From a virus: DNA of 36,373 nt. Below are positions 768 through 20,106 of this stretch, piece by piece. The notes beneath the pieces were generated by a model. That model had not been told where the DNA came from. It worked only from the letters and a program-made list of their open reading frames with translations, and did no database searches. The DNA lies in the IMG/VR virus record IMGVR_UViG_3300042362_000084, positions 1 through 36,373 of that record, one strand, 5' to 3'. Position 1 is the stretch's first letter. Every line of letters begins with the position of its first letter. The position numbers and the translations under genes were made by a program.

Positions 768-1103
768 ACCACCTACTACGACATTGACTCAATGCCCAAT
801 GAATACGACAAGGAGAACCAGTATCTCAGGCTTGAGCGTATTTGGTTTGACGGAACTAACGGCGTTATGAACGCATACGAGTTTCTCAATTCCATAATCA
901 AGCAAGATGGGGAAGTATCTTTCTCTCGCTCTGTTGCTATGTATGACGAGTTCTACACAAGCATAAACATTCATTTACCTGTGTCTGTACGAAACAGACT
1001 GGAACAAACAATCCAAGATTTAGCGGTTATTGCTACGGCACTGCGAAATAAACAGATTGACTTTGGCTACACACGCCCAACCACACAAGGAGAAACCAAA
1101 TGA
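765..1103 (+). CDS. Hypothetical protein (112 aa)
   Basis: 112 residues. The start at 765 follows the second copy of the recurrent leader. The protein looks mixed alpha/beta and soluble, with a probable C-terminal helix (VRNRLEQTIQDLAVIATALRN). No catalytic or metal-binding motif is visible. Its last codons contain AAGGAGAAAC, the ribosome binding site of the next gene, and its stop overlaps that start as ATGA. Family not recognised. Confidence 0.7.
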   Translation: MTTYYDIDSMPNEYDKENQYLRLERIWFDGTNGVMNAYEFLNSIIKQDGEVSFSRSVAMYDEFYTSINIHLPVSVRNRLEQTIQDLAVIATALRNKQIDFGYTRPTTQGETK

Positions 1104-1330
1104 AACCAGACAACAACATTGACCGTGTTGTGTATCGTGCACGACAGAACGACGCAATCCTGTATTGGCAATGCGTCAGTACCACCGACGAAGAGTTCCA
1201 ATGCGTGACTTATGTTGATGACATTGACTTGCCAGTGTATGAACGAGAGAACAATCTCGGTATGCGTTGGCTTATTACACCAATTCTTGACCGGAACATT
1301 GTTGATTACAACGGCAACCTTCGGTCTTGA
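1100..1330 (+). CDS. Hypothetical protein (76 aa)
   Basis: 76 residues. ATG at 1100 overlaps the previous stop (ATGA) and is preceded by AAGGAGAAACCAA, a good ribosome binding site. The sequence (VVYRARQNDAILYWQCV, EEFQCVTYVDDIDLPVY) suggests a small beta-strand-rich protein with two Cys residues that are not in a ribbon pattern. A perfect 10-bp hairpin follows its stop codon directly. Family not recognised. Confidence 0.7.
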   Translation: MKPDNNIDRVVYRARQNDAILYWQCVSTTDEEFQCVTYVDDIDLPVYERENNLGMRWLITPILDRNIVDYNGNLRS

Positions 1331-1353
1331 AACTCGGAACACCGTTCCGAGTT
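1331..1353 (+). repeat. Hairpin A, copy 2 (AACTCGGAAC / GTTCCGAGTT)
   Basis: A perfect 10-bp stem with a three-base loop (ACC) starts one base after the stop codon of the gene ending at 1330. The outer nine pairs equal hairpin A at 277-298, and both copies are followed by CTA. There is no T-tract, so a terminator is unlikely. It lies in the 62-base gap before the amidoligase gene and could separate expression of the small genes from the modification pair. Confidence 0.7.
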
Positions 1354-1392
1354 CTATCCACAAACAAACAACAAACCAAATAGGAGACAGTA

Positions 1393-2553
1393 ATGACTAC
1401 TGACCAAAACCCCAATGAAAACCCAGTCAACGACGAAGTTCCCGACACTCCAGAAATGCACCAGTGCGACTGGTGTCAAGACGAAGTTGAGCGTGAGTCA
1501 ATGACCGAATGCGAAGTTCGTGGACGAACAACTTGGCGCACAATTCACTTGTGTGAACCGTGCGAAGACAACTCAACAAGTTGCGAAGACTGTTCAAGCA
1601 CTATTCACTACGACAATGCTTATTCCATCAACAGCGACTTCTATGTATGTGAAAGGTGCTACGAGAACAACTATAGTTTCTGTGAATCCTGTGAGTCTCA
1701 CTATCACAGCGAACATTACTCGTCTTGTCCAGACGGTTGCGACGACGACGAAAGAAGCAACAGCCTTATCCAGTCGTACTCGTTCCGACCTGACCCTGTG
1801 TTCGGTTATCTACGCAACGGTGTGCCACGCTACTCAAGTGTTGCGCCGGCTAACACAAGTGTGACTGGCTTTGAGTTGGAGATGGAAGCGGTGAACTGTG
1901 AACGCTATGAAGGCGTAGAACTTGCAAACAACATCTTCAAGGATTGGTGCTACTTCAAGGAAGACGGTTCTCTTAGCAACGGCTTTGAGATGGTGTCTCA
2001 CCCTATGTCGCTTGACATTGTGCGTGACACATTCCCGTGGGAGCGTTTGCGTGAACTGTCATCTGTAGGTATGCGTTCTGCGCAGACACGCACTTGTGGT
2101 TTACACATTCACATCAACAAGTCGTTCTTTGCGAACAACCCAACAACTATGTATCGCTTTATGTCAATGTTCTATTCCAATGCCGAGCAGTGGAAGAAGA
2201 TTGCTGGTCGTAGCGAATCAACATACGCAAGTTGGAGCGAGTATGAGCAGTCACAACTGTTGTCATACACGAAGCACTTCGCCAACCGTAATCATTACAG
2301 CAACAGCGACCGTTATGTAGCACTCAACCTTCAGAACCGCAACACTATTGAGTTGCGTTTCTTCAAGGGTACGCTACGCCCGAGTTCATTCGTTGCTCGT
2401 CTGGAAGCGGTACACGCTGTAGCGCAGTACGCACAAGAGACACGCAACAATGTTTCTATCAAGCGCGCCCACGATTGGGAGCGTTTCCGTGAGTGGACAA
2501 CACGCAACGGATTTACACACTTCAATACATACGCAGATTCAAAGGGAGTCTAA
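1393..2553 (+). CDS. Amidoligase (COOH-NH2 ligase family) with N-terminal Cys-rich zinc domain
   Basis: 386 residues; ATG at 1393 with TAGGAGACAGTA upstream. Residues 25-116 carry regular Cys pairs (C25/C28, C54/C57, C64/C67, C86/C89, C97/C100) in a LIM- or zinc-ribbon-like array. Residues 156-350 resemble the Amidoligase_2 family: GFELEME (Glu161, 163, 165), EDGSL near 190, a conserved-looking Glu199, CGLHIHIN at 235-242, and NTIELRFFKG (Glu320, Arg322). The family is related to glutamine-synthetase-like carboxylate-amine ligases, which activate a carboxylate with ATP and couple it to an amine. The next gene encodes a glutamine amidotransferase, a likely ammonia source. The substrate is unknown: a protein, a peptide tag or cell-wall peptide is possible. 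The family call is firm and the reaction is inferred. Confidence 0.85.
   Translation: MTTDQNPNENPVNDEVPDTPEMHQCDWCQDEVERESMTECEVRGRTTWRTIHLCEPCEDNSTSCEDCSSTIHYDNAYSINSDFYVCERCYENNYSFCESCESHYHSEHYSSCPDGCDDDERSNSLIQSYSFRPDPVFGYLRNGVPRYSSVAPANTSVTGFELEMEAVNCERYEGVELANNIFKDWCYFKEDGSLSNGFEMVSHPMSLDIVRDTFPWERLRELSSVGMRSAQTRTCGLHIHINKSFFANNPTTMYRFMSMFYSNAEQWKKIAGRSESTYASWSEYEQSQLLSYTKHFANRNHYSNSDRYVALNLQNRNTIELRFFKGTLRPSSFVARLEAVHAVAQYAQETRNNVSIKRAHDWERFREWTTRNGFTHFNTYADSKGV
1404..1433 (+). repeat. 30-bp dispersed repeat, copy 1
   Basis: A stretch near the 5' end of the amidoligase gene matches 4156-4185 at 27 of 30 positions, both ending CCCAGTCAACGA. Here it is coding (residues 5-14); the other copy lies in a leader. 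See the finding on this repeat. Confidence 0.6.
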
Positions 2554-2558
2554 TAACA

Positions 2559-3479
2559 ATGTGTCTACTTACTTTCATTCCTGAATACACCCAACCTGAC
2601 ATTGACTTGTTGGCTACTGGTGCTGTCAATAATCCTGACGGTTTCGGTTACGCCATTCATACTGGTCGCAACATTATTCACAACTCTGGTCTGAAGTTTA
2701 TTCAGATTGCCGACGAGTTTCTATCGTTGCGTGACAAGTATCAAGGTCCTGCGTTGTTTCACTCTCGTATCACAACACACGGTGGTACAACTGTGGAGAA
2801 CTGTCACCCGTTTCAAGTTGGCAAGGACGAACTAACTGTTGTAGCACACAACGGTATGTTGCCTATTGACGCTAAGAACGGCAAGTCAGATACTCGCATC
2901 TTTGCGGAAGAGATGTTTCCTGCGTGGGGTGGTGCTTCCACTCTCAACAGCAAGAAGATGCGTAAGAAACTAGCGAAGTTTGCTAGTGGTTCTAAACTTG
3001 TGTTCTTGTCTGCCAACCCTGATGTTCAGAACGACTTCACTATCATCAACGAAGGTGACGGTCATTGGGACAGCAACGGTGTGTGGTGGTCTAACAACTC
3101 ATACAAGTACGAACGCTACTCATACTCTGGTGGCGGTATGTACACTACTGGCTGGTCTAAGACATCTCAGGGGGTGTACACTCCATCTGACACAGACTAT
3201 GACGACCCAACCGATAGTCCGTATGTGATTGACTGTTCATACGAAGACAGGAACGGCGAGACTGTGTGGGAGGAGTTGTGGATTTGTGCGACCTGTGGTT
3301 ACACACATACATTCAACGAGTCCAACATTGACCACGCCGACTTGTGTCCACAATGTGACACCTGCTGGTTCTGCTTTGAGGACAGAATGCTGTGCTCGTG
3401 CTACCCGCCACAGTCTGACTTAGTTTCACAGGGTGCGCACTCTATCCGTGACTACGATTCACCAATCGACTTCTTCTAA
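2559..3479 (+). CDS. Class II glutamine amidotransferase (Ntn hydrolase) with C-terminal zinc-ribbon-like domain
   Basis: 306 residues. ATG at 2559 is chosen over an upstream in-frame ATG because AAGGGAG precedes it and it places Cys at position 2, the N-terminal nucleophile of this family. Family-type motifs follow in order: NPDGFGYA, ALFHSRITTHGG, ENCHPF, VAHNGML and SDTRIFAEE. These are typical of the GAT-II domain, which hydrolyses glutamine and releases ammonia. A Ser/Tyr/Gly-rich stretch follows, then eight Cys at residues 243-281 (CATC, CPQC, CWFC, CSC) as a zinc-ribbon-like end. No synthase domain is attached, so the ammonia is probably handed to the amidoligase encoded five bases upstream. 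The activity is a solid family inference; the partner is inferred from context. Confidence 0.88.
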   Translation: MCLLTFIPEYTQPDIDLLATGAVNNPDGFGYAIHTGRNIIHNSGLKFIQIADEFLSLRDKYQGPALFHSRITTHGGTTVENCHPFQVGKDELTVVAHNGMLPIDAKNGKSDTRIFAEEMFPAWGGASTLNSKKMRKKLAKFASGSKLVFLSANPDVQNDFTIINEGDGHWDSNGVWWSNNSYKYERYSYSGGGMYTTGWSKTSQGVYTPSDTDYDDPTDSPYVIDCSYEDRNGETVWEELWICATCGYTHTFNESNIDHADLCPQCDTCWFCFEDRMLCSCYPPQSDLVSQGAHSIRDYDSPIDFF

Positions 3480-3507
3480 TCAACTACAACACAACAGGAG
3501 TAATCTA

Positions 3508-4137
3508 ATGACAACAAAGTACGAAGCCATCGTCACCATTCACATCCGCTACGACATCGCAGGAACCGATGTCTACAACGCCAGCGACTTTCTCAGTCGT
3601 GTATGTAACACAATGCGCAACTCCATCTATGGTGTAAACGCAGACGCATCAGTAAATGCGAGTGCCGATGTTATCGCTGGTATCGCCAACGGTACAGAAC
3701 ACGGCTCACATTCAGTGGGTCGTGTAACTTGGTCTCAAGTTCTAGACTCGGGTATGTCTATTGCTAGCGAATCACGCCACACACCTAATGTTGTGCTTGC
3801 CGGCTACATCGCTAGCGTAGATAACATCGCACGCGCCGTCAACAACGACTATCGTTCAATTGACAAGAGCGACAATCCAGAACTGTTTGAGCGTTCACGA
3901 CATCTGTCTATGAACCGTGTGAACGAAGATACGGACCGCACTCATATGCCTAGTGTTCCGTCTAGCACCGCTAATGTGATTGCTAGGAGAGCGTTGCGTG
4001 AAGTGCGTTCAATACCTATGATTCAACTGCGTCGTGAATGTCAGAAGTCAATGATTGAAATTCTTGACGGACTGTACGAAGACGGTTTACCACTCAACCA
4101 CGAGTTCAGTAGAAGTGAACTCAATGCCGAACGGTGA
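3508..4137 (+). CDS. Hypothetical protein (209 aa) downstream of the amidoligase/amidotransferase pair
   Basis: 209 residues. ATG at 3508 with AACAGGAGTAATCTA upstream; an in-frame ATG at 3433 inside the previous gene lacks a comparable site. The N-terminus (YEAIVTIHIRYDIAGTDVY) looks like an edge beta strand, the middle is polar and the C-terminus helical (RRALREVRSIPMIQLRRECQ). There is no signal peptide or recognisable enzyme motif. A 19-base tandem duplication spans its stop codon and changes the last residues. The position suggests it may work with the modification pair, but I do not recognise the family. Confidence 0.7.
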   Translation: MTTKYEAIVTIHIRYDIAGTDVYNASDFLSRVCNTMRNSIYGVNADASVNASADVIAGIANGTEHGSHSVGRVTWSQVLDSGMSIASESRHTPNVVLAGYIASVDNIARAVNNDYRSIDKSDNPELFERSRHLSMNRVNEDTDRTHMPSVPSSTANVIARRALREVRSIPMIQLRRECQKSMIEILDGLYEDGLPLNHEFSRSELNAER

Positions 4138-4963: not shown

Positions 4964-5355
4964 GTGAACAATGGTATGTAGTAGACTATGGAGATGACCT
5001 TGTGATAAACGCAGGAACATTCTCGGCAATGGAACTACTAATCAAGAAACTACACGGCGGGCTAGCCCTAGTGAAGTATGACGACCTGACACCCCAAATG
5101 AAACGGGGAGAAACAATCTACCAAAAAGGAGAAACAAAAATGAAAGACCTACGACCACTCATTGACGAGATGATAAAGCACGCCAGCATTGTGATGCACG
5201 AAATGAGCGACCTGCTCGAAGCATACGAGATGCCGGACTACGCAGAGAAATGTGACGCCCTAGACGGGCTATGGACAGCAATCGACAACTACCTCAAGGA
5301 GGTGAAACTAGATGACGGAGAAACAGACGAAATGGAAAGTTTGGGTTTGTCCTAA
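4960..5355 (+). CDS. Hypothetical protein (131 aa) with a possible internal start
   Basis: 131 residues. ATG at 4960 overlaps the previous stop (ATGA). Residues 1-60 (EQWYVVDYGDDLVINAGTFS...) look like one small domain. Residues 61-131 form an acidic helical part (LIDEMIKHASIVMHEMSDLL). An in-frame ATG at 5140 has its own strong site, AAAGGAGAAACAAAA, so a 71-residue C-terminal protein may also be made. The 3' end overlaps the 5312 zinc-ribbon gene by 44 bases and carries its AAGGAGGTGA ribosome binding site. Neither part is recognised. Confidence 0.7.
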   Translation: MSEQWYVVDYGDDLVINAGTFSAMELLIKKLHGGLALVKYDDLTPQMKRGETIYQKGETKMKDLRPLIDEMIKHASIVMHEMSDLLEAYEMPDYAEKCDALDGLWTAIDNYLKEVKLDDGETDEMESLGLS

Positions 5356-5449
5356 ATGTGGCAACGCATTCAAGACGGAAATAGAACTATCCGAACCACC
5401 AACCTGCTACAACCACAACGGCAAAGTCTACAAGATGGTCAAAAAGTGA
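5312..5449 (+). CDS. Zinc-ribbon miniprotein (45 aa)
   Basis: 45 residues: ATG at 5312, TGA at 5447-5449. The ribosome binding site AAGGAGGTGA is among the best in the window. The protein reads WKVWVCPKCGNAFKTEIEL then PPTCYNHNGKVYK, a CxxC pair followed by Cys and His that could complete one zinc site. It is in a different frame from the gene it overlaps. It may be a small adaptor or regulator binding nucleic acid or a host protein; this is inference. It is the last gene before the quadruplex/hairpin region. Confidence 0.7.
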   Translation: MTEKQTKWKVWVCPKCGNAFKTEIELSEPPTCYNHNGKVYKMVKK

Positions 5450-5486
5450 CAAAGGTTGAAACCCCCTTTGATAACCTACCGACCAC

Positions 5487-5514
5487 GGGGGAGGGGGACT
5501 ACAGGGGGTGGGGG
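5487..5514 (+). repeat. G-quadruplex motif, copy 1 (loops A, ACTACA, T)
   Basis: Four runs of five G (5487-5491, 5493-5497, 5504-5508, 5510-5514) are separated by loops of 1, 6 and 1 bases. The short loops and long tracts predict a very stable quadruplex on the plus (coding) strand or its RNA. The same layout with central loop ACTATA recurs at 35717-35736. Confidence 0.85.
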
Positions 5515-5525
5515 AAGGACCCGAA

Positions 5526-5553
5526 GCGCAACGCCACACAGGTGGCGTGGCGC
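5526..5553 (+). other. GC-rich hairpin after G-quadruplex copy 1
   Basis: Stem GCGC, one A/G mismatch, then ACGCCAC pairing with GTGGCGT around loop ACAG, closing with GCGC. It is 11 pairs in all, 11 bases after the quadruplex. No T-tract follows, so it is not a standard terminator. Confidence 0.7.
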
Positions 5554-5582
5554 ACCAGTACTAGCAGACACAAAGGAGAGAT

Positions 5583-6032
5583 GTGACAAAGACCCCCGAA
5601 GGCTGTGGTATTCTAGAACACGACGAGTTGTGCTTGTGTGATGTTGTCATCACAGACAAGACACCCGATAGTTATCTGGCAATACCACACGAATACCCCA
5701 ACGGAGAAGCAATCGCATACTACGGTAAGTGGAACGGCACAATCGAACACTGGTTTCAGATTTACGAAAAAGCCACCACAGGATTGCGACAGCACTACGC
5801 AGAACTTGAAGCAGAAATGAGTATTGACAAACGCAAGATAGAACCACCGAACGGTTGGAACTTCAAACGCAGAATGCCCGACGAAGTATACGAGTACCTA
5901 GTCAACGGTATCCGCAGAGGTATCAAGCCTACAGCCCTGAGAAATGAACTCATTCAAGAGTTCGACTACACGATAGACAGGTCGTATGTGACCAAGTTGA
6001 AAGACCGACTAAAAGCAAAAGGAGTTCTGTGA
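5583..6032 (+). CDS. Hypothetical protein (149 aa) with possible C-terminal helix-turn-helix
   Basis: 149 residues from GTG at 5583. The site AAAGGAGAG lies 4 bases upstream. An ATG-TGA start-stop pair (5581-5586) overlaps this start in another frame. The N-terminus has a Cys cluster (GCGILEHDELCLC). The C-terminal 55 residues (DEVYEYLVNGIRRGIKPTALRNELI...YVTKLKDRLKAKG) look like a helix-turn-helix with a recognition helix near the end. It opens the replication block and overlaps the nuclease gene by four bases. It could be an origin-binding or regulatory protein acting on the structured region just upstream; this is inferred from position. Confidence 0.65.
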   Translation: MTKTPEGCGILEHDELCLCDVVITDKTPDSYLAIPHEYPNGEAIAYYGKWNGTIEHWFQIYEKATTGLRQHYAELEAEMSIDKRKIEPPNGWNFKRRMPDEVYEYLVNGIRRGIKPTALRNELIQEFDYTIDRSYVTKLKDRLKAKGVL

Positions 6033-7259: not shown

Positions 7260-8314
7260 TGCGACTAACGCTTGAACAAATTCAAGCGGGATGGAACGAA
7301 GTGGGGGCAGACACACAGGTGTCTGCTCCCATCTCGTCGTTAGCCCGCGAATACAAACACTATGTGCCACTCACAGAAGCCGCACACTCATTCGTACGGT
7401 GGGCACAGTCCCCCGAAGAACGAGTGTATCTCGGCATCGAACCGCTAGACAACGAGATGCGAGGCATCGCACCCGGCGAACTAGCAATGATGCTCGGCTA
7501 CTCACACGGTGGCAAGACACTGGTACTGTTACATACACTACGCAACAACCGTGACAAGAAGGTTGCGTTGTTTATCCCTGACGAACCCAAGACATTAGTA
7601 CTCACTAAACTTGTGTGTATGCACCACAACATTGATGCACGCATACTTGAACAGCGAGTAGCCGAAGACGACAAAGAAGCGATTGACTTGTTGCGTCAAA
7701 CAGCAGAGGAAGACTTTCCGAACCTTGCTGTATTCGACCAACCTCTCGTACCCGCAGACATGGAACGAGCCTACGGCGAAGTCTGTGACGTCTGGGGGTC
7801 TAAGCCTGACCTTATGGTTGTGGACTATCTAGAACTTGTCGAAGCAGGCGAAATGGTGCCAGAGAAAGCAGGATACCTGAAAGGTTTCGGCAGACGCCAC
7901 GACATCCCAATGTTGGTGCTTCACCAAACATCACGCTCCAGTGGTGCCGAAGGAAAGAAACTAACAATGTCGTCAGGTGCGTACGGTGGTGAACAACAAG
8001 CCACCAGCATCATCGGTGTACGCCGTAAGAAGTACGAGATTATGTCAGAGATAAACGACCTACGCGAAAAGCTGGACCGCAACCACAGCGAGAAAGCACA
8101 GGAACGTCTAGAGTCTCTGGTGTATGACCAGCGTATCCACGAATACACAGTCACCCTCAGTTTGCTGAAGAACAAACGTCCGGGTGGTACACTGGTAGAC
8201 GATGTTGACTTCGAGTTGGACATCAAGACAGGCCGACTGTGGGAACTGAAGCCTGGCGAACTACCCGACCAGTATCTACGGAGGGCGCAATGGTCACAAT
8301 CAGAGTTCCAATAA
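7259..8314 (+). CDS. DnaB-like (SF4) helicase / RecA-fold ATPase
   Basis: 351 residues; ATG at 7259 shares one base with the previous stop. One RecA-fold domain: Walker A GYSHGGKT at 80-87; IPDEP with a probable catalytic Glu109; Walker B LMVVDYLEL with Asp189; VLHQTSR near 220; and a GGEQQATSIIG stretch. This matches the C-terminal ATPase of replicative helicases, which load as hexamers and unwind the fork. It lacks the usual N-terminal primase-interaction domain and is shorter than the roughly 450 residues of full DnaB, fitting the separate primase encoded next. A RadA/Sak4-type recombinase is the main alternative. Good confidence in the fold, less in the exact role. Confidence 0.85.
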   Translation: MRLTLEQIQAGWNEVGADTQVSAPISSLAREYKHYVPLTEAAHSFVRWAQSPEERVYLGIEPLDNEMRGIAPGELAMMLGYSHGGKTLVLLHTLRNNRDKKVALFIPDEPKTLVLTKLVCMHHNIDARILEQRVAEDDKEAIDLLRQTAEEDFPNLAVFDQPLVPADMERAYGEVCDVWGSKPDLMVVDYLELVEAGEMVPEKAGYLKGFGRRHDIPMLVLHQTSRSSGAEGKKLTMSSGAYGGEQQATSIIGVRRKKYEIMSEINDLREKLDRNHSEKAQERLESLVYDQRIHEYTVTLSLLKNKRPGGTLVDDVDFELDIKTGRLWELKPGELPDQYLRRAQWSQSEFQ

Positions 8315-9219
8315 CCCCCTACATCCTTGATTCATTCACCACCCTGTTCCGTGGGCGTGGAGATGTGTACGGCTCTTGGGCTGGTGGATGCGTACGCAAG
8401 CCACTCAACAGCGACACATTCCTAGGACACCTACAAGGTGATGAACTGATTGGCGTGTATCCGCTACTGCCATACAAAAGCAGTTGGTACACCGTGTGGG
8501 GATGCACAGACATCGACGTTGATGACCTAGACAGTGCACGCAACATACAAATGGCGTTCACAATCAAAGACATCAAATCGTGGGTTGAGAAAACACGGCG
8601 TGGATACCACGTCTGGGTTTTCGCAGACTCGCTTATACCAGCCGCCACAATGCGACGAGCATTCCTCGCCGCACACCAAGCGGTCAACTACCCAGCAAAA
8701 GAAGTAAACCCAAAGCAAGAATCCGCAGGAACAGGCTACGGCAACTACGTACGCCTACCATACCCCAACGCTATCGAAGGAAGATACGATGAAAGATACA
8801 TTCTCGACGACAATGATGAGCCGCTACCACTGCAACGCTTCCTGCCCGAAGCACTGCAACAGCGAGCCACCTTCGAACAGTTGGACGGAATCGCACAACT
8901 CTGGAAAGAACCACAAAGAGTTCACGTCATCCATCAAGAAACCAGCGCAGACGTCAAATCCATCCTCAGAAAAGCAGGAGCAATCCCATATGTTATATGG
9001 CGCGACGGACCCCTCGAAGGAGCAGACCGTTCTTCGACTCTCTTTCGACTTGCGTGTAAACTTAGAGACGCAGGTTGCACAGCTGGAGAGAGTTTTGCGG
9101 TTCTTAAATCTGGCGATTCCAGGTGGGGCAAATTCTATCTCCGTTCAGACGGTGACCAAGAACTCATCAAAATCATAGAACGCTCATACAACATCATTTG
9201 GGACGGTAGAAATGCGTAA
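8290..9219 (+). CDS. Archaeo-eukaryotic-type primase (AEP/PrimPol-like)
   Basis: 309 residues. ATG at 8290 is chosen because ACGGAGGGCGCA is an excellent site; the 25-base overlap with the helicase gene points to coupled translation. AEP motifs: GCTDIDVDD with Asp74 and Asp76 (metal-binding DxD), RRGYHVWVF with His107 (the G-x-H motif of the family), and a later GNYVRLPYP. AEPs make primers, and several also extend DNA (PrimPol). The C-terminal 120 residues are helical and may be a priming-helper domain or DNA contact. Since no family A or B polymerase is seen in this apparently complete genome, polymerase activity is an interesting possibility but unproven. Confidence 0.8.
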   Translation: MVTIRVPITPYILDSFTTLFRGRGDVYGSWAGGCVRKPLNSDTFLGHLQGDELIGVYPLLPYKSSWYTVWGCTDIDVDDLDSARNIQMAFTIKDIKSWVEKTRRGYHVWVFADSLIPAATMRRAFLAAHQAVNYPAKEVNPKQESAGTGYGNYVRLPYPNAIEGRYDERYILDDNDEPLPLQRFLPEALQQRATFEQLDGIAQLWKEPQRVHVIHQETSADVKSILRKAGAIPYVIWRDGPLEGADRSSTLFRLACKLRDAGCTAGESFAVLKSGDSRWGKFYLRSDGDQELIKIIERSYNIIWDGRNA

Positions 9220-9550: not shown

Positions 9551-10008
9551 GCAAAAATTCTGACTGGGACATCCCGGCATCAAACTTCAATTTCAAAAAG
9601 GATTTACAGTATGGACAACAAGGAGAAAAATTCGTACAATCGTTTCTTGACTCTCTTAGCGGAGGAGCGTTCGAGGTTAAAACAGACAGATACAGGAATG
9701 GGCGAATGGCGGTCGAGGTTGAGCAAAACCCGTATCGCAAAACAGATGAAGAAGGCGTCCAAGTCTGGAAACCGTCAGGCATCAACGTCACCAAAGCCCA
9801 ATGGTGGGTTTACGTCTACACCCTAGACGGCAAAGAAGGAGCATTCGCTGTTATATCTGTTAAGCGTTTAAAGAAGTACATCAAGAAGAACAAGAAGAAT
9901 CTGAAGATGATGGACTTTGCTAAACGTTCCAGCAACCCAGCACGTGGATGGATTATCGAACCAGAACAAGTGATGGATATGATGTATAACGAACTGTACG
10001 ATGAATGA
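9547..10008 (+). CDS. Putative PD-(D/E)XK-type endonuclease (153 aa)
   Basis: 153 residues; ATG at 9547 in a four-base ATGA overlap with RusA. The N-terminal half reads QQGEKFVQSFLDSL then FEVKTDRYRNGRMAVEVE. A Gly-x-x-Gly-Glu helix followed by ExK and a later Glu pair resembles small phage PD-(D/E)XK or restriction-like nucleases. The C-terminus is Lys-rich (KRLKKYIKKNKKNLK), suiting DNA contact. With RusA next door it may process branched or host DNA. Fold assignment is plausible by eye only. Confidence 0.6.
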   Translation: MSKNSDWDIPASNFNFKKDLQYGQQGEKFVQSFLDSLSGGAFEVKTDRYRNGRMAVEVEQNPYRKTDEEGVQVWKPSGINVTKAQWWVYVYTLDGKEGAFAVISVKRLKKYIKKNKKNLKMMDFAKRSSNPARGWIIEPEQVMDMMYNELYDE

Positions 10009-10825
10009 ATTCAAACCCATACGGTCAACTGCAGACAGGCTTCCCGACAACGAAATCGAAGCACTGATGATGGCTAAACCGTTTGAAGAACCAGCAGGAA
10101 ACAACGAAGACTTAATGGTGCTACGAGAAGCAGTCGCTGCAATCGTAGACGAACTCGGTGAACGAGACCTGTGGATTATCAACGCCTGTATTAGCGAAGG
10201 CAAATCTTTACAAAAGATTGCCGACGAATTAGGTATGACCAAGACACACGTATGGCGTTTACGCAATCAAGCATTTGAAAAACTAAGAGGAGTAATGATG
10301 ACCGACACAACAATCCGCAAGCACGTACGTTTAGCAACCACGTGGGAGCAGTCAGCAATGCAGTGGGTGATGTACCTGTCGGGTATTGAACACGACCAAT
10401 CACTGTCACCAACAATCAGCAGAATGCGTTCCTACATTGACTCGCTAGAAGAAGTGTACAGAACAGATGAAGAGATTGCTGGCACACAGCAAGCATTCGA
10501 ATACATCGCGGCAACAGCAATTGCCGCAATGCGATACCGAGAAATCTGGGACACAGGATACATGGTGTCCACACTCTGCAAGAAACAACACGACTACGGA
10601 CACGGCAACATTAACCGCTTCGGCATCTACGGTGTTATCGTCCGACTCAGCGACAAAATTGAACGACTGGAAAACCTAAACAAAATTGAAACACCACACA
10701 ACGAATCAAAACACGACACCTTACTGGACATCGTTGGCTACTGCGTTATCGCACTAATGCTAATGGATGATACTTTCAACCTAGACTTAGGAGATGACTA
10801 TGGAACAGCAACCGGACACGAATAA
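10001..10825 (+). CDS. Fusion: sigma-region-4-like HTH plus DUF1599-like domain
   Basis: 274 residues; ATG at 10001, overlapping the previous gene by 8 bases (a second ATG lies at 10005 in another frame). Residues 45-97 (ELGERDLWIINACI, SLQKIADELGMTKTHVWRLR) form a sigma-70 region-4-like helix-turn-helix. Residues 190-255 (KKQHDYGHGNINRFGIYG, VRLSDKIERLENL, HDTLLDIVGYCVIAL) resemble DUF1599, a nucleotide-modification-associated, MazG-like helical domain. The two are linked by a helical stretch. In-frame ATGs at 10294 and 10297 follow AAGAGGAGTA, so the second domain may also be made alone. A late transcription factor is one option. Domain calls are good, the function of the fusion unknown. 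Confidence 0.75.
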   Translation: MNEFKPIRSTADRLPDNEIEALMMAKPFEEPAGNNEDLMVLREAVAAIVDELGERDLWIINACISEGKSLQKIADELGMTKTHVWRLRNQAFEKLRGVMMTDTTIRKHVRLATTWEQSAMQWVMYLSGIEHDQSLSPTISRMRSYIDSLEEVYRTDEEIAGTQQAFEYIAATAIAAMRYREIWDTGYMVSTLCKKQHDYGHGNINRFGIYGVIVRLSDKIERLENLNKIETPHNESKHDTLLDIVGYCVIALMLMDDTFNLDLGDDYGTATGHE

Positions 10826-11590: not shown

Positions 11591-12112
11591 TCAGGCATCA
11601 ACTTTCTGCCAATGCCATGCCTCAAACTCGGGGTTCTTTTTACCGTTAGGCAACGTCGGCTTGCCCTGCAAATAAAAACCATACGCCGGTGCGTTCACAT
11701 CCAGCCACGCCAACACCTTCGGATTGCGCACATCAATATCAACAGCCAAACCGTAGCCGTGATTCGACGCTCCAGGAGTCGCACAAGGTGACATACCCTT
11801 ACGCAAATACCACACACGACCATCAAACTTGCGTGTCACCTGAGGAACACGACCCTCATCCTTAAGGCTGTATCTGCTCATAAACAGGGCGTGCTGACTC
11901 TGATATGAACGGTACGAACCAATGTTGCGCAACGTGATGCCATCACGCTTTGCGTGAGTGTGCATCTGATTAAACGCCTGAGCAACAGGACGATACAGAA
12001 AGCCGCCACCTTTCATCTTACCCATCAAACGCACAGGCAACTTACCGTTAGGAACCGCGCTTAATTTAGCGGGCACAACCAAACGTTTTGTTGGATACTT
12101 TAACTTAGCCAT
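11591..12112 (-). CDS. M15-family (VanY-like) D-Ala-D-Ala peptidase, endolysin
   Basis: 173 residues; last gene of the minus arm, with AAAGGGG upstream of the start. Zinc ligands fit the M15 family: SNHGYGLAVDID (His118, Asp125) and EAWHWQ (catalytic Glu164, His167). GSYRSYQSQ at 65-73 is the usual substrate-side motif. These enzymes cut peptide bonds in the cell-wall stem peptide. There is no signal peptide or separate wall-binding domain, so export needs a holin (candidates at 32915-33276). The first 30 basic residues may bind the wall. As the only obvious soluble lysin it is the likely endolysin. Confidence 0.88.
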   Translation of the reverse strand: MAKLKYPTKRLVVPAKLSAVPNGKLPVRLMGKMKGGGFLYRPVAQAFNQMHTHAKRDGITLRNIGSYRSYQSQHALFMSRYSLKDEGRVPQVTRKFDGRVWYLRKGMSPCATPGASNHGYGLAVDIDVRNPKVLAWLDVNAPAYGFYLQGKPTLPNGKKNPEFEAWHWQKVDA

Positions 12113-15100
12113 TACTGGCCCCTTTCTTTATTAACGAAATCCTGCATCTCATACAGTCTACGCATCAGTTCATTATTGCGTTGCTGTTCAGTAACCCCAC
12201 GAAGAGGGATACCAAGATACCTTGCCAGACCCAACTGGTCGGATGTTTCACCACTACGAGTAATACGTTCCAACTGTCCAAGCATTGGCAACAAGTTTGT
12301 TGCCGCATACTTTGCACCACTGTTGTTCTCATCAAACTCTCGACCAGTAAAGAACTGGCGTCCACCAGCAAGTTCTACAGGCACACGCAAACCAGGGTTA
12401 ACCATGCTTAACATCTTGCGTGGATTACCCAAGTCTTCAATTACTCTTTCTGTAGACATAAACGGCAAGTCCAAAGAAAGATAAGTACTGTCACCAACCT
12501 TGATTGGGTCACCACTCTTCATATATCCCGGCATCTGCTCATCGTCTTCTACACGGAAGTTCTTAGCAAAACGTTCGTAGATTACATACGGCCTAGGGTT
12601 GGTCCACTGTGTAACAATTTGAACTGGCAGGTTGCGGCTAACCCACGTCCAGAAAGGAATAACATTACGTACCGTATCATCAAGGATGGTTGGGTCATTA
12701 TAGTCAACCAAGAAACGGCGGGTACGGTTAAACGATTCAGTAAAATCGCCTCCCTTAACAGCCGAGTCATACGCCAACATAAACCGTGCAGACCCCTCAA
12801 CCCTTTGACCAAACTTGCGTGACGTACGCGTTGCCGCATTGTCTGTCAACAGGTTCTTACGCAAGTCGATAAACTCTGCGAAAGCATCGTCGGTTTTACC
12901 GCCACCCAAACCAAGAGTAACTTCTCCAGCAATCTTAGCAAGTACACGGTCCTCTTCAGGGATGGTCAACAACCACGAATCCAAAGTACCGCCACCCTTG
13001 ACGTGCTCGCCAAGAGAACGCCACATCTTCAAACCCTTACTCATATTCTTTACATCGGCACCAGCAGCAAACAACTGGAAGGTGTTGCTGATGGAGTTAC
13101 GAACGTGGAAACCAGGGCTCAGAGTAGCGTACGCCTTAAAGAAACCAGTGTAGTTACCCAAGAACCTGCTCAGTTCACGAACCGTAGCAGCATCGGTGAT
13201 GCGGTTTGTGTTTGCCATAATGTCACTCAGTTCCTTTGACACCGAATAGCTAGGCATGTTGAAACCATCGGAAACTACACGCCCCTCTGCCTTCAGAATG
13301 TCGTCTACAGCCTTACGGAAAGCTTCCGTTGCTGGCTTAAGAACTTTATCCACATACACACCAGCTTGAGCGTTATCAATATTTGATTTTGCTATCTGTA
13401 CAGCCTGTTGCTGAAGAGCGAAGCGTGTTTCAGCAGCAGAAGCGTTCAGCATTGCATTCCAAATAACAGCCTCGCCACCATCAGACAGCTCAACTGTGGC
13501 CAACTTAGAAAGAAGTTCACGGTTTCCGTTAATGATATCCAAAACATTTCTCATCCACTTCTCACGAGTAGAAGCTTTCTTTGCGGAATTCAAAGCAGCA
13601 ATATCACCCTTCTTTGGCATACTCTGTGTAAGCTGCTCAAGAAGAACCGAACGCTTCTTAAGCGCAGAAGCAGTTGTTTCCATATGGGAAACACCAGCGG
13701 TACTGAGTTCAACAGATGGGTCAAAATCATCTAGAGTTGCTCTAAGTTCTGCAGCAAACTCAAACACATCAAGCTTTGCTCCTGTTACTTCAGCTTGGGC
13801 TGCAAGAACATCTGCAGACGCACCAGCACGCTCAACATCCAAAGCTTCACGTACCGTTTTTACACGCTCACCAAGAGTCTTCAAATCATCAGACCATTGA
13901 GACATAACCCTGTACGTTTCATTCACCCTAGCAAAAGAAGGATTCAAAATAGCAGCATCAAACATCTTCGCAGTATCATTCAACAGCACACCCTGCAAAC
14001 CAAACAAAGCAATAGACGCCCTAACCTCTTCAGAAGCGTCACTCCATATTGTCGCACCACCCGGCTTTCTTAAATCAAAGAACAAATCACCACGCTTCTT
14101 TGACTTGCGAACATACTTTAACGGGTCAGCAAGCATATCCTGCACAGAAGGAACTGTATAAGTTCTTCCATTCAAAGTATAGTTCACTTCTTTGTTTGTC
14201 GACCAGAACGGAGTAGCAGTATCAAACTCTGCTCCAGCAGCCTTAGCTGCCTGGAGTTCCTTGTTGCGCATCTCCATAACAGCCTTACGGAAAGACAACT
14301 GAACTTCATCCGTTACCGTGGTAGTGCGTGCAGCAACAGTAGCAGCACGTTCAGCCGACTTTCTGAGATTCTTCGCAACGGATTCTTTATCCCTGTATGC
14401 GGCCATAGCCGCATCCTTGGCAAGTTCATTAGCTTTTTGAAGAACAGCATACGACGGGTTCTTTTCCCAAGCCCTTGTTAGTTCTGCTTTTCGAGCGTCT
14501 GCACCGCCACGAACTGTTGACCACTCTAAGGGTGCACCTGAAATGCTGGGATTAACTTTTTGTGCAGACGTAAAGTAATAAGCCAGCGTATTGTTAACAC
14601 TTTTATCAACTGGCACAGCTCGTTCACGCGTAATTAAATCGCCAGTTTCTGCGTCTTTGGGCGGCACTATGCCTGTTTCAATTTCTTTAATTACTTGCTC
14701 TGTGCGATAAGTAAAATCAGTAGAAAGAATATCAGGTTGCTCCGGGGCCAAACCAGACTTAATTTCAACTTCTTTTTCAAAACCTAATTTAGGCTTAGGA
14801 AGAACGTTGCGTTTTGCTTTAAGTTGAGCAGAAATATCTTCCCAATCAGAAAGCTTAATAGCGTCACTACCATCACCAGCAGTACCCTGAATAAGGATGC
14901 GAACCTTTTCTAAAGCAGCATTACGGGTTTCCTTAAACGAAACAAGAAGTCTATAGTCGATACCCTTTATTTCGTCCTGCATACGTATAATTTCGTTTTC
15001 CATTCTACGAATAGCAGCCTTCTTGCCGGGGCTCCAAGTAGCACCAGGCTGTTGAGACGCCTTGCCAATTGACTTTCTAAGTTCACCTATATTCTTAACA

Positions 15101-18100
15101 ATACCGGCACGTTGCTTATTTAAAGCAACCACCTCCAAACCTGCAAGCGGCACACTATACAGAGAATCCCATTCCGCTTTTGTAAACTTTAAAACACTTC
15201 CGTCAGGCATTGTGGCGAATACAGGAACAATGTCAAATTCAATATCTGCATTGGCTGTAATGCTGGGGGCGGAAACGCTTGCCTGTGTCTTTTCAATCTC
15301 AGCCTGAATCTGGCTACGCTTAAAATCAAATTCACTCTTCTTTGTTCTATCCCAAGCCTGTTTGCGCATGCCGTAAGCCTTGCGCATTTCTGCACTCTTA
15401 AACTGAACCTTGCCATCCTTCTGAACCACAAACGGCGTCATCAAAGTCTTAATACTTGAACGCTCATCCACATCGATTTGTGCAAGCTGGCGTTGAAGAG
15501 CATCAACCTTTTCAGCAACCATCTCAGGAGTATTAATAACAGCACCTTCGGCGTATCTTGGAACACGATTTGTTCCAATGATTACGCCATCGGTAAACTC
15601 TGCAAAGTTAACACCAGAAACCATATCCAAGAAGTTAACAATATCCTGGTCCTTCAAAGCGTTAGCATACCCAATGGTAGCCATAAGCCTTCTATGTTCA
15701 AGGACTGCCTCGCGAGAAACAACCATTTCTTTTGTGAAGCCAAGACCCTTAAGTTGTTCAACCGTAAGATTAGGGTTAGAGAAAGCGTCGGCAACTTCCC
15801 TAGCACGCGTAGCTGCGTCCGCAAGATTCGCTGCTTCTTCCTGCGCCTTAAAAGCTAAATTTGCACTCTTCTTGTATGCACCAGCAGCAGTAGGTCCAAG
15901 CTCCTCAACAATCTCACGTCCAATATCATCCTGGCGTGTAGAAATAACACTAGGACCTTCGATTACTTTTGCCCATTCAAGCAACTGAACAGCATAACTA
16001 GATGGTGTATTAGCAGAGCCATCAAGACTTCTAAAGAACTCATCAACATCCAAGTATCCGTCAGACATTTTCTTGAAGAAAATATAATGCCCCTGTGCAT
16101 CACTGATTTGCTGAGAAATGAAACCCCGGCTAATTACATCACCGTTTGTGGAATCAACAGTATCAAACATGCTGTTAATCCAACGGTAAACATCCGCTTC
16201 GGAAGACTCTCTCGAAAGAGGTCCACGAGCAGCCCGTGAAGCTGCCTTGCTTACACGATTGGATGTAGTAGTTGTACCCTTGTATGTTTCAACCAGAACA
16301 CCACGGGCAGGACCCTTGTTTGCCTTAATCGTTGGGTCTTTCTGCTTAGCCCAAGGTATAACGTATCTATCAAAGAAATCATTAAGACGCTCACTAGCTA
16401 CAGCCTTAGCCCCAGGTGTGTCCGCATTTCTTACAGCAGCCTCAAGTGTTGCGACATCAACACGCATGTCAGCAACATCAACAAGGTTCGCCATATTGCT
16501 ACCAATAAGTTCACGAAGAATTTCACCATCTTCACCACTCAAAGCCCTGTCCAGTTCCTGCCTAAACAAAACACCAACACCAACTTGTTCTTCTCTAGGA
16601 AGTTTTTTCATTTCGTTCAGCGTCTTTGTCCAACCAGCATAAAAATCAGCAAACTTCTGATTAGCAATATGCAGACGAGTAACCTTTTGGTCAAACTGTG
16701 AACCATACTGCTTAGATACTGTACGCATAATACCACGCCACATATCTTCCGACGGAATCAAACCATGACGACCAAGGATACCAGCAACAGCTTCAAACTT
16801 TGCTGTAGCATCAGAAACAGCCTGGTACCTTACAAGGTTTTCCGCCAAGTCTTCACGAACAGCACTTGCCTTCTTAGCCTTGTTGTACTGCCACCTCTTG
16901 TATTTATATGTAGAAGATTCTGAAACTTTCTGTTTAAGAATGTTCTGCATTTCGTTTTCATACTCGCCAATAATCTGTTGACGTGTTTTAGAAATAATCC
17001 CACCGGTTTCTTTACCCTGAAGAAGGTTTGCGGTTCTAGCATCAGAAACCTGAACAGAAGTACTGTCAAAAACATTACGCATTTGAGCAGCCTTAGATGC
17101 GATATCGTCGTAAACATTACCCAGTGTCAACCCTGTTCCAACGTTAACCTTTCCAGGTCCAGCAGGAAAAAGAAAACCAGGATTATCTAGGTACTCGTAA
17201 ATCCAAGGAACGTTTTCGAATGTTTCTTTAAACGTTGATGCACCATTTTCTAAAGCAATAACAATATCTTCTGTAAATTCCAAATCACGCCAACCATCAC
17301 CAAACTGCTTAGCAATTCCTTCATCAACAAAACGCACAACATCCGTGTACTCCTCAATAGTATTACGCATGGCTATAGCACCGTCATACTCGATACCTAA
17401 ACGACTACGCAAAGATTCTTCAGCATCCTTCGCCTGCTTAGAAGCCCTAGATGTAGCAATACGTGAAGCCTCGTCAAGGTCTGCTTCCTTCAAAGAAGAA
17501 ATCAAACGCTGATACACTTCCTGTGTTGCCTTAGGTAAATCCTCTAGTTTGGTGGCCTGATGAATACGAATATCCCTACCAATAGCGTGCATGGCTGCAG
17601 CACGAAGGTCAACAAGGTTGACATCTTTAGAACCTGTGTTTAAAACAATATCAAAGAACTGTTGCTCATTCATATCTGACACACGTGTGCGAGCTACACC
17701 ACCAAGACCAGCCTCGTTTGCTTCATTAAAAATCTGGTCAAAGAAATTTGCTGCTGCAATATCTTCCGCTGAAGAACCAGCGGGAAGTTGATTGCGCAAA
17801 AAGAGTCTAGTCTTACCCGTTACACCAACGGCTTCCGAAACAGCCTTCCCTTGCTTTTTAGTAGTAGAAGAAGCTTTAACTCCAAGAACATTACGCAGCT
17901 CATCAATAATGTCGTGTGCACTAGCAGAAACACGAGGAGACTTTCCATCAACAATAGAATCCCAAACACGTTCCAACTCGTTAGAGATAACCATAGTGGA
18001 CTCAATAGAGTCCATAGATTCCTTCATCTTGCGTTGTGCCTCAGCCGCAGACTCCTCGATACGACGCAAAGCGTCTTCAGCGTCAAGAACATCATAGCCT

Positions 18101-20106
18101 TCTTTTGTGGCCTGCAGTTGAAGTTCCTGCAGAACAGTAGACATCTGTTGAATGTCTTCAACCATTTGGTCGTATTCAGCGAGCACAGGACGGAGAGTTA
18201 CAGGGAAATCATCCGTCAAAGAATACAATGGTATATCTCGCGATGGTCCCCACAAAGAAGCCAAACGATTCTTCGCTTGTGCAAGCTCATCTGCTTTACG
18301 TGCCACATCATCAAGCATGTCATACAAATACTTAGACATATCCTCAGCGAGACGCTGTGATGTTGCAAGACCGTTCTTTACCCGGTCTGCCTCTGCACGC
18401 ACACCATCAACCAAATCTGTAATAGATTTTCTGAACCCCTGCTCAACACCTTCAAGAATATTTGTCTGCTCATCAAGCGTTGTGCGAGCAAAAGCAACAG
18501 CATCATCATCAATTTCTAATTGACGCACACGCTGTTCTTCGATTCGACGGAAGAAACCGGTATCACGCAACTGCTTGTTGCGCTCAATAATACCAATCTC
18601 TTCGGAAGTGTCTGCGACGTAACGGCGCATAACTTCCGCAATGTCTGTTTCAAAGAAATCAAAATCAAGCTTACCCTCTTCACGGGCGATACGGTTCAGT
18701 GTATCAATGTTAAGGTCCTGCTTCTTTAATACAACACCAAACCATTTTTTACCTTCACGAAGAGCGCGCGGCGTAAAAGCATTAGGAGAAGCAAAAGGGT
18801 CATCCAAATAAATTTCGCGAACACTTTCAGCATTCGGATTGCTAGAATTAACCCAACGCTTAGCATCATCAGAAGCAACACGAGGGAAATAGTTTTCCGT
18901 CTTACCAATCTCTGCAGCCTCGTCAGCATCCAACCATCGAGCACTAACATCATCCCACTTGCTGTCTAAGTATGAACGCCAAACGTCATAAGCACGTTTT
19001 TCGGCGTCTGTAGCGGTAGCAAGTTTAGTAGGGTCTTCCAACAACCTGTATACGCTACTACGATACGAAGGCAGGTCTGCTTCCTGTGAACGCAGAATGG
19101 CCATCAACTCCTGCTCAAGTGCCTGCTGTGCAGTAGCACGAGCAGCACGTTGCTTAGGAATAATATCAAACAACTTGAGAGCGTCAGCAGCATCATCTGG
19201 ATTCAGTTGGTTTCTAGCCAACTTCAAACGCATATCCAAAAAGTCCTTAGGCATAGACATCTTCTGAAGATAATTTCCAAGACGTGTATCCGTAATAGCC
19301 ATACGTGTTTTAGCGAGGGTTGCTTCACCAATCTCACCAATAGTTCCAGTTAACGGTATACGAAGACCACCGCTTTCCTTAAAGATGCGCTTACCAAACA
19401 GATACACACCAAACTTGTTTGCGCCTACACGCTGGAGAATTTCGTTGCCGTTAGCGACGTTACGCAAAGCGGAACGACCCTCACGCGCAACCGCGGCAGA
19501 CAACGCCTTATCACCAGTGTCTTTAAGAATTGTTTGACCGAGCTTTACACGACCAGCATAACCAGCACCCTTTACAAGACCAGTACCAGCACCAAATGTA
19601 GCATACGTTAACGGGTCAAGAGCAACGTCACCAACAAATCCAATAGCACGGTCAACCCATTTGCTGCCCGTATTAATCTTGAATGCTTTACCAAACCCAA
19701 ACTGGGAATCCTTAACCTGCTTAGTAAAATCACCAAAGCTAGCTTTTGTGCTGGCGTTACCATCAAGATAGTCTGTCAACTCTCGAGCACCCGAAACAAC
19801 AACACGACCCGGAACAGCAAAAGCCTCAAGCCCCTTAAGAGCTGCTTTCGTTACGGGGTTACCAAGAGCAGTGCCCCAAAATCCGCTAGGTTGACCACCG
19901 CTAGAACCATTAGCAATAGCCTCAATCTGTTGACGCAACTGAGGATTCTGAATAGCGAACCTATTAGCAGCCCTGCCCAGTTTAATAGACTCAGCAGAAG
20001 GAGTTGAAGACGTAGGGTTAAGACCCCCAGATGGGGTCGTACCACGGGACTGTACCTGCCCAAGACGGGCGGTAATAGCCCGCATATCATTATACGGATT
20101 AGCCAT
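12112..20106 (-). CDS. Giant internal virion / DNA-ejection protein (2664 aa)
   Basis: 2664 residues, the longest gene by far (22% of the window). ATG at 20106 lies one base after ATAGGGT. The N-terminus (to about 200) is Gly/Ala-rich with hydrophobic segments (GFVGDVALDPLTYATFGAG, partial). Residues 300-2200 are mostly long charged helices with coiled-coil character. A segment NYFPRVASDDAKRW and, near the C-terminus, FHVRNSISNTFQ, RRFLVDYNDPT and RNVIPFWTWVSRNLP resemble conserved parts of large phage polyvalent and internal virion proteins. By analogy with T7 gp15/gp16 it may extend a conduit through the host envelope. I see no lysozyme or MuF motif. Structural role likely; domain details unsure. 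Confidence 0.75.
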   Translation of the reverse strand: MANPYNDMRAITARLGQVQSRGTTPSGGLNPTSSTPSAESIKLGRAANRFAIQNPQLRQQIEAIANGSSGGQPSGFWGTALGNPVTKAALKGLEAFAVPGRVVVSGARELTDYLDGNASTKASFGDFTKQVKDSQFGFGKAFKINTGSKWVDRAIGFVGDVALDPLTYATFGAGTGLVKGAGYAGRVKLGQTILKDTGDKALSAAVAREGRSALRNVANGNEILQRVGANKFGVYLFGKRIFKESGGLRIPLTGTIGEIGEATLAKTRMAITDTRLGNYLQKMSMPKDFLDMRLKLARNQLNPDDAADALKLFDIIPKQRAARATAQQALEQELMAILRSQEADLPSYRSSVYRLLEDPTKLATATDAEKRAYDVWRSYLDSKWDDVSARWLDADEAAEIGKTENYFPRVASDDAKRWVNSSNPNAESVREIYLDDPFASPNAFTPRALREGKKWFGVVLKKQDLNIDTLNRIAREEGKLDFDFFETDIAEVMRRYVADTSEEIGIIERNKQLRDTGFFRRIEEQRVRQLEIDDDAVAFARTTLDEQTNILEGVEQGFRKSITDLVDGVRAEADRVKNGLATSQRLAEDMSKYLYDMLDDVARKADELAQAKNRLASLWGPSRDIPLYSLTDDFPVTLRPVLAEYDQMVEDIQQMSTVLQELQLQATKEGYDVLDAEDALRRIEESAAEAQRKMKESMDSIESTMVISNELERVWDSIVDGKSPRVSASAHDIIDELRNVLGVKASSTTKKQGKAVSEAVGVTGKTRLFLRNQLPAGSSAEDIAAANFFDQIFNEANEAGLGGVARTRVSDMNEQQFFDIVLNTGSKDVNLVDLRAAAMHAIGRDIRIHQATKLEDLPKATQEVYQRLISSLKEADLDEASRIATSRASKQAKDAEESLRSRLGIEYDGAIAMRNTIEEYTDVVRFVDEGIAKQFGDGWRDLEFTEDIVIALENGASTFKETFENVPWIYEYLDNPGFLFPAGPGKVNVGTGLTLGNVYDDIASKAAQMRNVFDSTSVQVSDARTANLLQGKETGGIISKTRQQIIGEYENEMQNILKQKVSESSTYKYKRWQYNKAKKASAVREDLAENLVRYQAVSDATAKFEAVAGILGRHGLIPSEDMWRGIMRTVSKQYGSQFDQKVTRLHIANQKFADFYAGWTKTLNEMKKLPREEQVGVGVLFRQELDRALSGEDGEILRELIGSNMANLVDVADMRVDVATLEAAVRNADTPGAKAVASERLNDFFDRYVIPWAKQKDPTIKANKGPARGVLVETYKGTTTTSNRVSKAASRAARGPLSRESSEADVYRWINSMFDTVDSTNGDVISRGFISQQISDAQGHYIFFKKMSDGYLDVDEFFRSLDGSANTPSSYAVQLLEWAKVIEGPSVISTRQDDIGREIVEELGPTAAGAYKKSANLAFKAQEEAANLADAATRAREVADAFSNPNLTVEQLKGLGFTKEMVVSREAVLEHRRLMATIGYANALKDQDIVNFLDMVSGVNFAEFTDGVIIGTNRVPRYAEGAVINTPEMVAEKVDALQRQLAQIDVDERSSIKTLMTPFVVQKDGKVQFKSAEMRKAYGMRKQAWDRTKKSEFDFKRSQIQAEIEKTQASVSAPSITANADIEFDIVPVFATMPDGSVLKFTKAEWDSLYSVPLAGLEVVALNKQRAGIVKNIGELRKSIGKASQQPGATWSPGKKAAIRRMENEIIRMQDEIKGIDYRLLVSFKETRNAALEKVRILIQGTAGDGSDAIKLSDWEDISAQLKAKRNVLPKPKLGFEKEVEIKSGLAPEQPDILSTDFTYRTEQVIKEIETGIVPPKDAETGDLITRERAVPVDKSVNNTLAYYFTSAQKVNPSISGAPLEWSTVRGGADARKAELTRAWEKNPSYAVLQKANELAKDAAMAAYRDKESVAKNLRKSAERAATVAARTTTVTDEVQLSFRKAVMEMRNKELQAAKAAGAEFDTATPFWSTNKEVNYTLNGRTYTVPSVQDMLADPLKYVRKSKKRGDLFFDLRKPGGATIWSDASEEVRASIALFGLQGVLLNDTAKMFDAAILNPSFARVNETYRVMSQWSDDLKTLGERVKTVREALDVERAGASADVLAAQAEVTGAKLDVFEFAAELRATLDDFDPSVELSTAGVSHMETTASALKKRSVLLEQLTQSMPKKGDIAALNSAKKASTREKWMRNVLDIINGNRELLSKLATVELSDGGEAVIWNAMLNASAAETRFALQQQAVQIAKSNIDNAQAGVYVDKVLKPATEAFRKAVDDILKAEGRVVSDGFNMPSYSVSKELSDIMANTNRITDAATVRELSRFLGNYTGFFKAYATLSPGFHVRNSISNTFQLFAAGADVKNMSKGLKMWRSLGEHVKGGGTLDSWLLTIPEEDRVLAKIAGEVTLGLGGGKTDDAFAEFIDLRKNLLTDNAATRTSRKFGQRVEGSARFMLAYDSAVKGGDFTESFNRTRRFLVDYNDPTILDDTVRNVIPFWTWVSRNLPVQIVTQWTNPRPYVIYERFAKNFRVEDDEQMPGYMKSGDPIKVGDSTYLSLDLPFMSTERVIEDLGNPRKMLSMVNPGLRVPVELAGGRQFFTGREFDENNSGAKYAATNLLPMLGQLERITRSGETSDQLGLARYLGIPLRGVTEQQRNNELMRRLYEMQDFVNKERGQ

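Follow-up and report, generated by a model that had tools for sequence, protein, structure and literature searches.

Two adjoining genes at positions 1393–3479 of a 36,373-base virus record from IMG/VR (IMGVR_UViG_3300042362_000084; this whole stretch of analyzed DNA is called the window below) seem, on balance, to encode the two subunits of a single phage enzyme, a glutamine-dependent amide ligase. The class II glutamine amidotransferase (GAT) subunit would split glutamine with its N-terminal Cys and release ammonia, and the amidoligase subunit would activate a carboxylate with ATP. The two proteins would form a physical complex, in which the ammonia (less likely another amine) would be transferred to attack the activated carboxylate and yield an amide. 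Cys-rich regions in both proteins may link the subunits to each other or bind the target. This reading draws on the adjacency of the genes in related loci, the exchange of the glutaminase at two loci, nearly invariant motifs, correlated divergence of the partners, the predicted folds, and the lack of a constant third partner. The original prediction had the pair making an amide as a unit of ligase and glutaminase; the unit stood (adjacency, active sites, correlated divergence, and GAT swap), and of its two additions, the further gene at 3508 fell away and the lipoprotein gene proved a weak clue to the cell wall.

Organization of the gene pair

The amidoligase gene (1393–2553, plus strand, 386 aa) is preceded by a likely ribosome-binding site, AGGAG, at 1382–1386 and ends with a TAA stop codon at 2551–2553. 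After a gap of 5 bases, the GAT gene (2559–3479, plus strand, 306 aa) opens with ATG TGT at 2559 and thus has a Met-Cys start. Its likely ribosome-binding site, GGGAG (2544–2548, plus strand), lies within the end of the amidoligase gene. In 300 first-order shuffles of positions 1001–4000, the longest open frame was 259 codons, and the observed frames of 386 and 306 codons are therefore not attributable to chance. The earlier description of a GAT-II protein five bases downstream, with Cys at position 2 and a Cys-rich end, was confirmed from the sequence, as were the five CxxC pairs of the Amidoligase_2-like protein, from its Cys positions and a Pfam score above the cut-off.

The amidoligase

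The window amidoligase matched Pfam Amidoligase_2 (PF12224) at 5.5e-8 with 33.4 bits, above the curated cut-off of 22, and 61 of the 62 members of the family alignment matched the same model at E ≤ 1. Its predicted structure had a mean pLDDT of 90.9. The ligase domain (residues 151–386; 1843–2550, plus strand) of this predicted model aligned with YbdK (1r8g_B) at Z 12.0 (rmsd 4.1, 221 residues aligned) and with many glutamine synthetases at Z 10–11. The Pup ligase PafA and the depupylase Dop were also among its Foldseek matches (E 2e-3 to 2e-2). The residues of the ExE, GxHxH, and TxExR motifs are all present. The ligase active site that the original prediction expected in the structure thus appeared in the model, as a glutamine-synthetase-like fold with its motifs, and the protein is confidently predicted to be a glutamine-synthetase-like ligase behind zinc-finger-like repeats.

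These repeats form an N-terminal Cys-rich region with a LIM-like or treble-clef-like appearance (residues 25–116; 1465–1740, plus strand), delimited by its Cys positions, the family profile, and the model. It contains five CxxC pairs, with Cys at positions 25, 28, 40, 54, 57, 64, 67, 86, 89, 97, 100, 112, and 116. In the predicted model, the pairs are borne on strand-hairpin-helix units (residues 22–105), an arrangement that fits treble-clef zinc fingers. The amidoligase family profile matched the LIM protein CRP1 at 3.9e-5, and 4/62 relatives matched Pfam LIM (best, 3.8e-7). The window amidoligase gave no match to Pfam LIM, and its Cys-rich region alone, searched by sequence against solved structures, hit no LIM protein; the spacing from C89 to C97 exceeds that in LIM domains. 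The Cys-rich regions of both proteins probably bind zinc.

The glutamine amidotransferase

The window GAT scored below the Pfam cut-offs (GATase_4, 16.4 versus 23; GATase_6, 16.3 versus 27) and matched phrog_25883 at 8.3e-36. All 17 members of its family alignment matched GATase_4 at E ≤ 0.1 (best, 8.7e-8), and the family profile matched solved GlmS glutaminase chains at 4.6e-8. A Cys directly follows the initiator Met, and the glutaminase residues R, T, H, N, G, and D are present. The glutaminase (Ntn) domain spans about residues 2–187 (2562–3119, plus strand), as judged by alignment with a folded relative, L204. The fold evidence comes from this relative only, modeled with its amidoligase as a read-through single chain, in which residues 383–567 aligned with GlmS 1xff_A at Z 14.0 (rmsd 3.8, 173 residues aligned) and, in a tie, with EgtC at Z 13.6 (rmsd 3.5, 164 residues aligned). 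The RWATHG, N-x-HP, and HNG motifs of L204 aligned with GlmS. The pTM of the chain was 0.58, which gives no claim about an interface either way.

The C-terminal Cys-rich region of the GAT (residues 243–281; 3285–3401, plus strand) has Cys at positions 243, 246, 263, 266, 269, 272, 279, and 281 and four CxxC motifs, the number found in most relatives. It is followed by a C-terminal tail (3426–3476, plus strand) with two terminal Phe residues in the translation. Of 82 complete GATs, 47 ended in F, Y, or W, compared with 2/85 amidoligases and 66/712 other neighboring proteins. The share remained similar at coarser clustering (20/46 at 60% and 8/19 at 50%), and an end reading THPSYY or nearly so recurred in one GAT clade after variable linkers. 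This C-terminal aromatic tail of the GAT is a new observation.

Conservation of the pair across phages

IMG/VR was searched with the two proteins and also with alignments, which yielded sets of 36, 17, at least 80, and at least 80 loci. Among the candidates listed from IMG/VR, at least 581/600 with the amidoligase pattern and at least 541/600 with the GAT pattern were confirmed as relatives. The resulting 215 related loci, four of them from named phage records, do not count the window itself (L053). The amidoligase gene lay directly before the GAT gene on the same strand in 208 of the 215, a figure that counts loci from twice-fetched contigs twice; the safer one is 153 distinct junctions, the number of distinct junction sequences among the 203 viral-contig loci. 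The opposite pattern, relatives that never carry the two genes side by side, which the original prediction had named as evidence against itself, was not found. When the GATs were clustered at 80% identity, 86 of the 87 clusters fell in the amidoligase component. The set with a defined GAT start excludes L072 and L193, and the folding alignments exclude L017, L034, L052, L055, L056, and others.

Four of the seven exceptions to adjacency (L019, L022, L147, and L202) are cut at the locus end. A fifth, L035, carries a different class II GAT at the GAT position (Pfam GATase_6, 1.2e-9), and the gut phage contig MT839723 (L245) repeats this arrangement, with an amidoligase bearing Cys-rich repeats next to a GAT of the other type. 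In both contigs, the glutaminase thus seems to have been exchanged and its role kept. The sixth, from a Clostridioides phage (L057), has an amidoligase without a Cys-rich region and no GAT. In the seventh, L119, amidoligase and GAT are read in one frame (2443–4023) that lacks the first residues of the GAT, including its Met-Cys. We rejected this fusion as proof of interaction, since it is the only fused frame, has no GAT Met-Cys, and is likely a deletion chimera or an assembly fault. A Microcoleus phage locus (L250) likewise has an amidoligase with no GAT match within the stretch examined. Just before its pair, L007 holds a second, short amidoligase-like frame without a Cys-rich region (5090–5704).

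The active sites were conserved almost throughout. Met-Cys, HxRxxTxG, NxHPF, and HNG were each present in 150/150 distinct GATs, RxxTHG was present in 148/150, and the GxExE...GxHxH...TxExRxF series was complete in 157/159 distinct amidoligases. The identities of the two partners were correlated (r = 0.85 over 3570 comparisons of 85 clusters; none of 500 permutations was as high), and part of this correlation arises from shared phage ancestry. At least two CxxC motifs were found in both proteins in 69 of the 74 clusters scored, in the GAT only in three, and in the amidoligase only in two; the remaining 11 of the 85 clusters, incomplete or unparsed, did not enter this count. Amidoligases with Cys-rich repeats also occur next to a GAT that has none. 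A search of genome_contigs with the amidoligase alignment found no relative, and a search with the GAT alignment found two metagenome-assembled contigs (L218 and L219), phage or cellular, each with an adjoining amidoligase match.

The pair was present in 15 of the 17 loci of the lineage of the window's helicase (7259) that have at least 6.7 kb upstream. It was missing in L233 and L237 and is therefore dispensable. In these two loci, the region of the pair contains genes of about 290–330 aa that matched nothing in the relatives used for comparison. Together with the amidoligases that have no adjoining GAT (L057 and L250), this absence argues against the two-subunit reading, as does EgtC, an amidohydrolase, which scores as well as GlmS against the L204 GAT. 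Glutamine-synthetase-like ligases normally use free ammonia or an amine, and a glutaminase is therefore not strictly needed.

Relationship to known phage systems

The window pair is of the type of Mycobacterium phage Marvin (Marvinvirus) gp105/gp106; it is a distinct variant of a kind already known. The Marvin proteins are relatives at 28.8% identity over 81% and 31.4% over 95% of the query, are encoded by adjacent genes in the same order, have Cys-rich regions in both partners, and belong to the same PHROGs (22302/16683 and 25883), labeled as being of unknown function. The Marvin genes are separated by 79 bases, compared with 5 in the window. The annotation of Marvin gp105 calls it a glutamine amidotransferase domain protein, though it is actually the amidoligase.

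MurT/GatD and LtsA/AsnB, which amidate the cell wall, resemble the pair in combining a ligase with a glutaminase that amidates a carboxylate. They differ in fold: MurT is a Mur ligase, GatD is a class I glutaminase, and AsnB has a different synthetase fold.

An amidoligase with a glutaminase is a gene kind already published for LUZ24-, RIO-1-, and OM43-type phages, as passages of the respective papers indicate. Methylophilales phages MEP401 and MEP402 carry related amidoligase and GATase genes in the same order, slightly overlapping in MEP401 (PMC10580990, in the passages available); the MEP401 GAT differs in having no CxxC pair in its C-terminal part. The LUZ24/tf/UFV-P2/RIO-1-type modules (PMC3890496, PMC5498523, and PMC11945000, in excerpts) also place an amidoligase before a GAT, and hhalign indicated fold-level similarity (79 and 42 columns). 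The LUZ24 gene set comprises a COOH-NH2 ligase, an amidoligase, a GAT, an ATP-grasp protein (RimK), and a cyclotransferase; no COOH-NH2 ligase, ATP-grasp, or cyclotransferase gene was found among the neighbors scanned around window-type pairs, and LUZ24 gp18 differs further in having no N-terminal Cys-rich region. Modification of peptidoglycan is ascribed to such modules in excerpts of PMC5498523 and PMC11945000. The passages of PMC10580990 on OM43 phages name amidoligase and GATase genes and cite Iyer et al. (2009) for cell-wall modification in phiEco32; for secondary metabolites they cite the Marvin paper. In the literature searched, largely titles, abstract openings, and passages, the stand-alone Cys-rich two-gene form as such was not found, and no paper dealt with the Cys-rich regions of the pair or with its aromatic GAT tail.

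Stenotrophomonas phage StenR_269 (L247) has two GAT genes, one directly before a protein annotated as an L-glutamine synthetase and an ATP-grasp-like gene, and the second after an amidoligase further on; the theme of ligase plus glutaminase thus recurs in other arrangements. The GAT-like protein of phage C75C1 (4986–5894 of L249) reads SNG at the HNG motif.

Neighboring genes

The gene at 3508 (209 aa), which the original prediction had offered as a possible member of the unit, belongs to a family found in 4/87 locus clusters, close relatives only, and this membership was given up. A constant third gene was also rejected: the position immediately downstream of the GAT is filled by genes of many families, each with at most 11 loci. 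A PADLOC search with five proteins gave no match, and a reading as a defense system was rejected on that result. The Pfam scan of 139 neighbor-family representatives, which covered multi-locus families with a representative of at least 80 aa and single genes of at least 180 aa, found no ATP-grasp protein, COOH-NH2 ligase, cyclotransferase, or Mur ligase. Among the window genes scanned, there was likewise no ATP-grasp, COOH-NH2 ligase, or cyclotransferase gene.

Alternative functions and possible targets

A gamma-glutamyl cycle, in which the ligase couples an amine to glutamate or a glutamyl peptide and the GAT-II subunit strips the glutamyl group off again, is possible though improbable. EgtA and EgtC carry out such joining and removal in ergothioneine synthesis. 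Consistent with this, YbdK, a gamma-glutamyl ligase, is the top individual match of the ligase in the PDB, and EgtC ties with GlmS for the L204 GAT. LUZ24-type modules contain a cyclotransferase gene, and phage C75C1, with an amidoligase upstream, encodes a related GAT whose C-terminal half is cyclotransferase-like and which is annotated as a gamma-glutamyl cyclotransferase. However, the GAT active site, as aligned in L204, is of the GlmS glutaminase type; no EgtC chain was among the sequence matches to solved structures of the GAT family profile or the L204 alignment; and the 139 neighbor representatives of window-type loci include no cyclotransferase.

Amidation of the cell wall was judged doubtful to the same degree. 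Here, early in infection, the pair would turn a carboxylate on peptidoglycan, or on a precursor of it, into an amide and so change the wall that competing phages or the hydrolases of the phage itself encounter, as suggested for LUZ24-, RIO-1-, and OM43-type phages in passages of PMC11945000, PMC5498523, and PMC10580990. WhiB-like genes, found in 49/87 loci but not in the window's nearest relative (L037), suggest that the hosts of many of these phages are actinobacteria. In 47/87 loci, a transglycosylase- or lysozyme-like family is present within 5 kb, but the largest such family (24 loci) has a representative without a Pfam match, so that its wall role is an interpretation only. The wall lipoprotein (4418), which the original prediction took as a cell-wall clue, proved weak evidence, because L233 and L237 lack the pair and still encode a relative of the transglycosylase-like protein found in the window's nearest relative. 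The partners of the wall modules (ATP-grasp, COOH-NH2 ligase, and cyclotransferase) were absent from the neighbors scanned, and the passages available contained no test of the function.

Returning to the glutamine-dependent amide ligase, we would guess at a macromolecular target, with a protein as the leading candidate, though one short of a majority, a peptidoglycan precursor behind it, and something else the least likely. A narrower version of the same reading is speculative, and we hold it to be a little less probable than either alternative above: a phage protein-amidating enzyme whose ligase, of glutamine-synthetase fold, would depend on a GlmS-type glutaminase, whose LIM-like zinc fingers would read the protein target, and which the aromatic GAT tail would dock or gate. 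If so, host proteins would have acidic side chains or C-termini turned into amides during infection.

A role in nitrogen or amino-acid metabolism that feeds the host, proposed in passages of PMC10945688 for Phage-ZRK32, a carrier of both gene types, is very unlikely, since Cys-rich regions and a lineage-specific tail would be odd for a general metabolic enzyme and cellular relatives in genome_contigs are few. Least likely of all is that the two genes are neighbors through phage gene order only, with no joint function: common descent can conserve phage gene order in this way, but the pair stays while the following gene varies, and another class II GAT occupies the same place in L035 and L245.

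The pair is very widespread in environmental phages, yet PHROGs labels its families as being of unknown function, and records of Marvin-type phages give one of the two proteins a wrong name. These phages have Mycobacterium smegmatis mc2 155 as a recorded host, which makes deletion of the genes and mass spectrometry feasible. Proof of a target would decide a guess about phage amidoligases that recurs from paper to paper, with no test of it in the passages available.

Other genes of the window

Several other features of the window were recorded. A chain encoded at 10001–10825 combines sigma-70 region 4 with a DUF1599 (nucleotide modification associated) domain. The gene for a primase-like protein of the AEP-TOTE family (8239–9219) overlaps the end of the helicase gene. 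A single open frame of 2664 aa occupies 12112–20106 on the minus strand, and a putative tail protein with collagen-like Gly-X-Thr repeats is encoded at 24301–25485.
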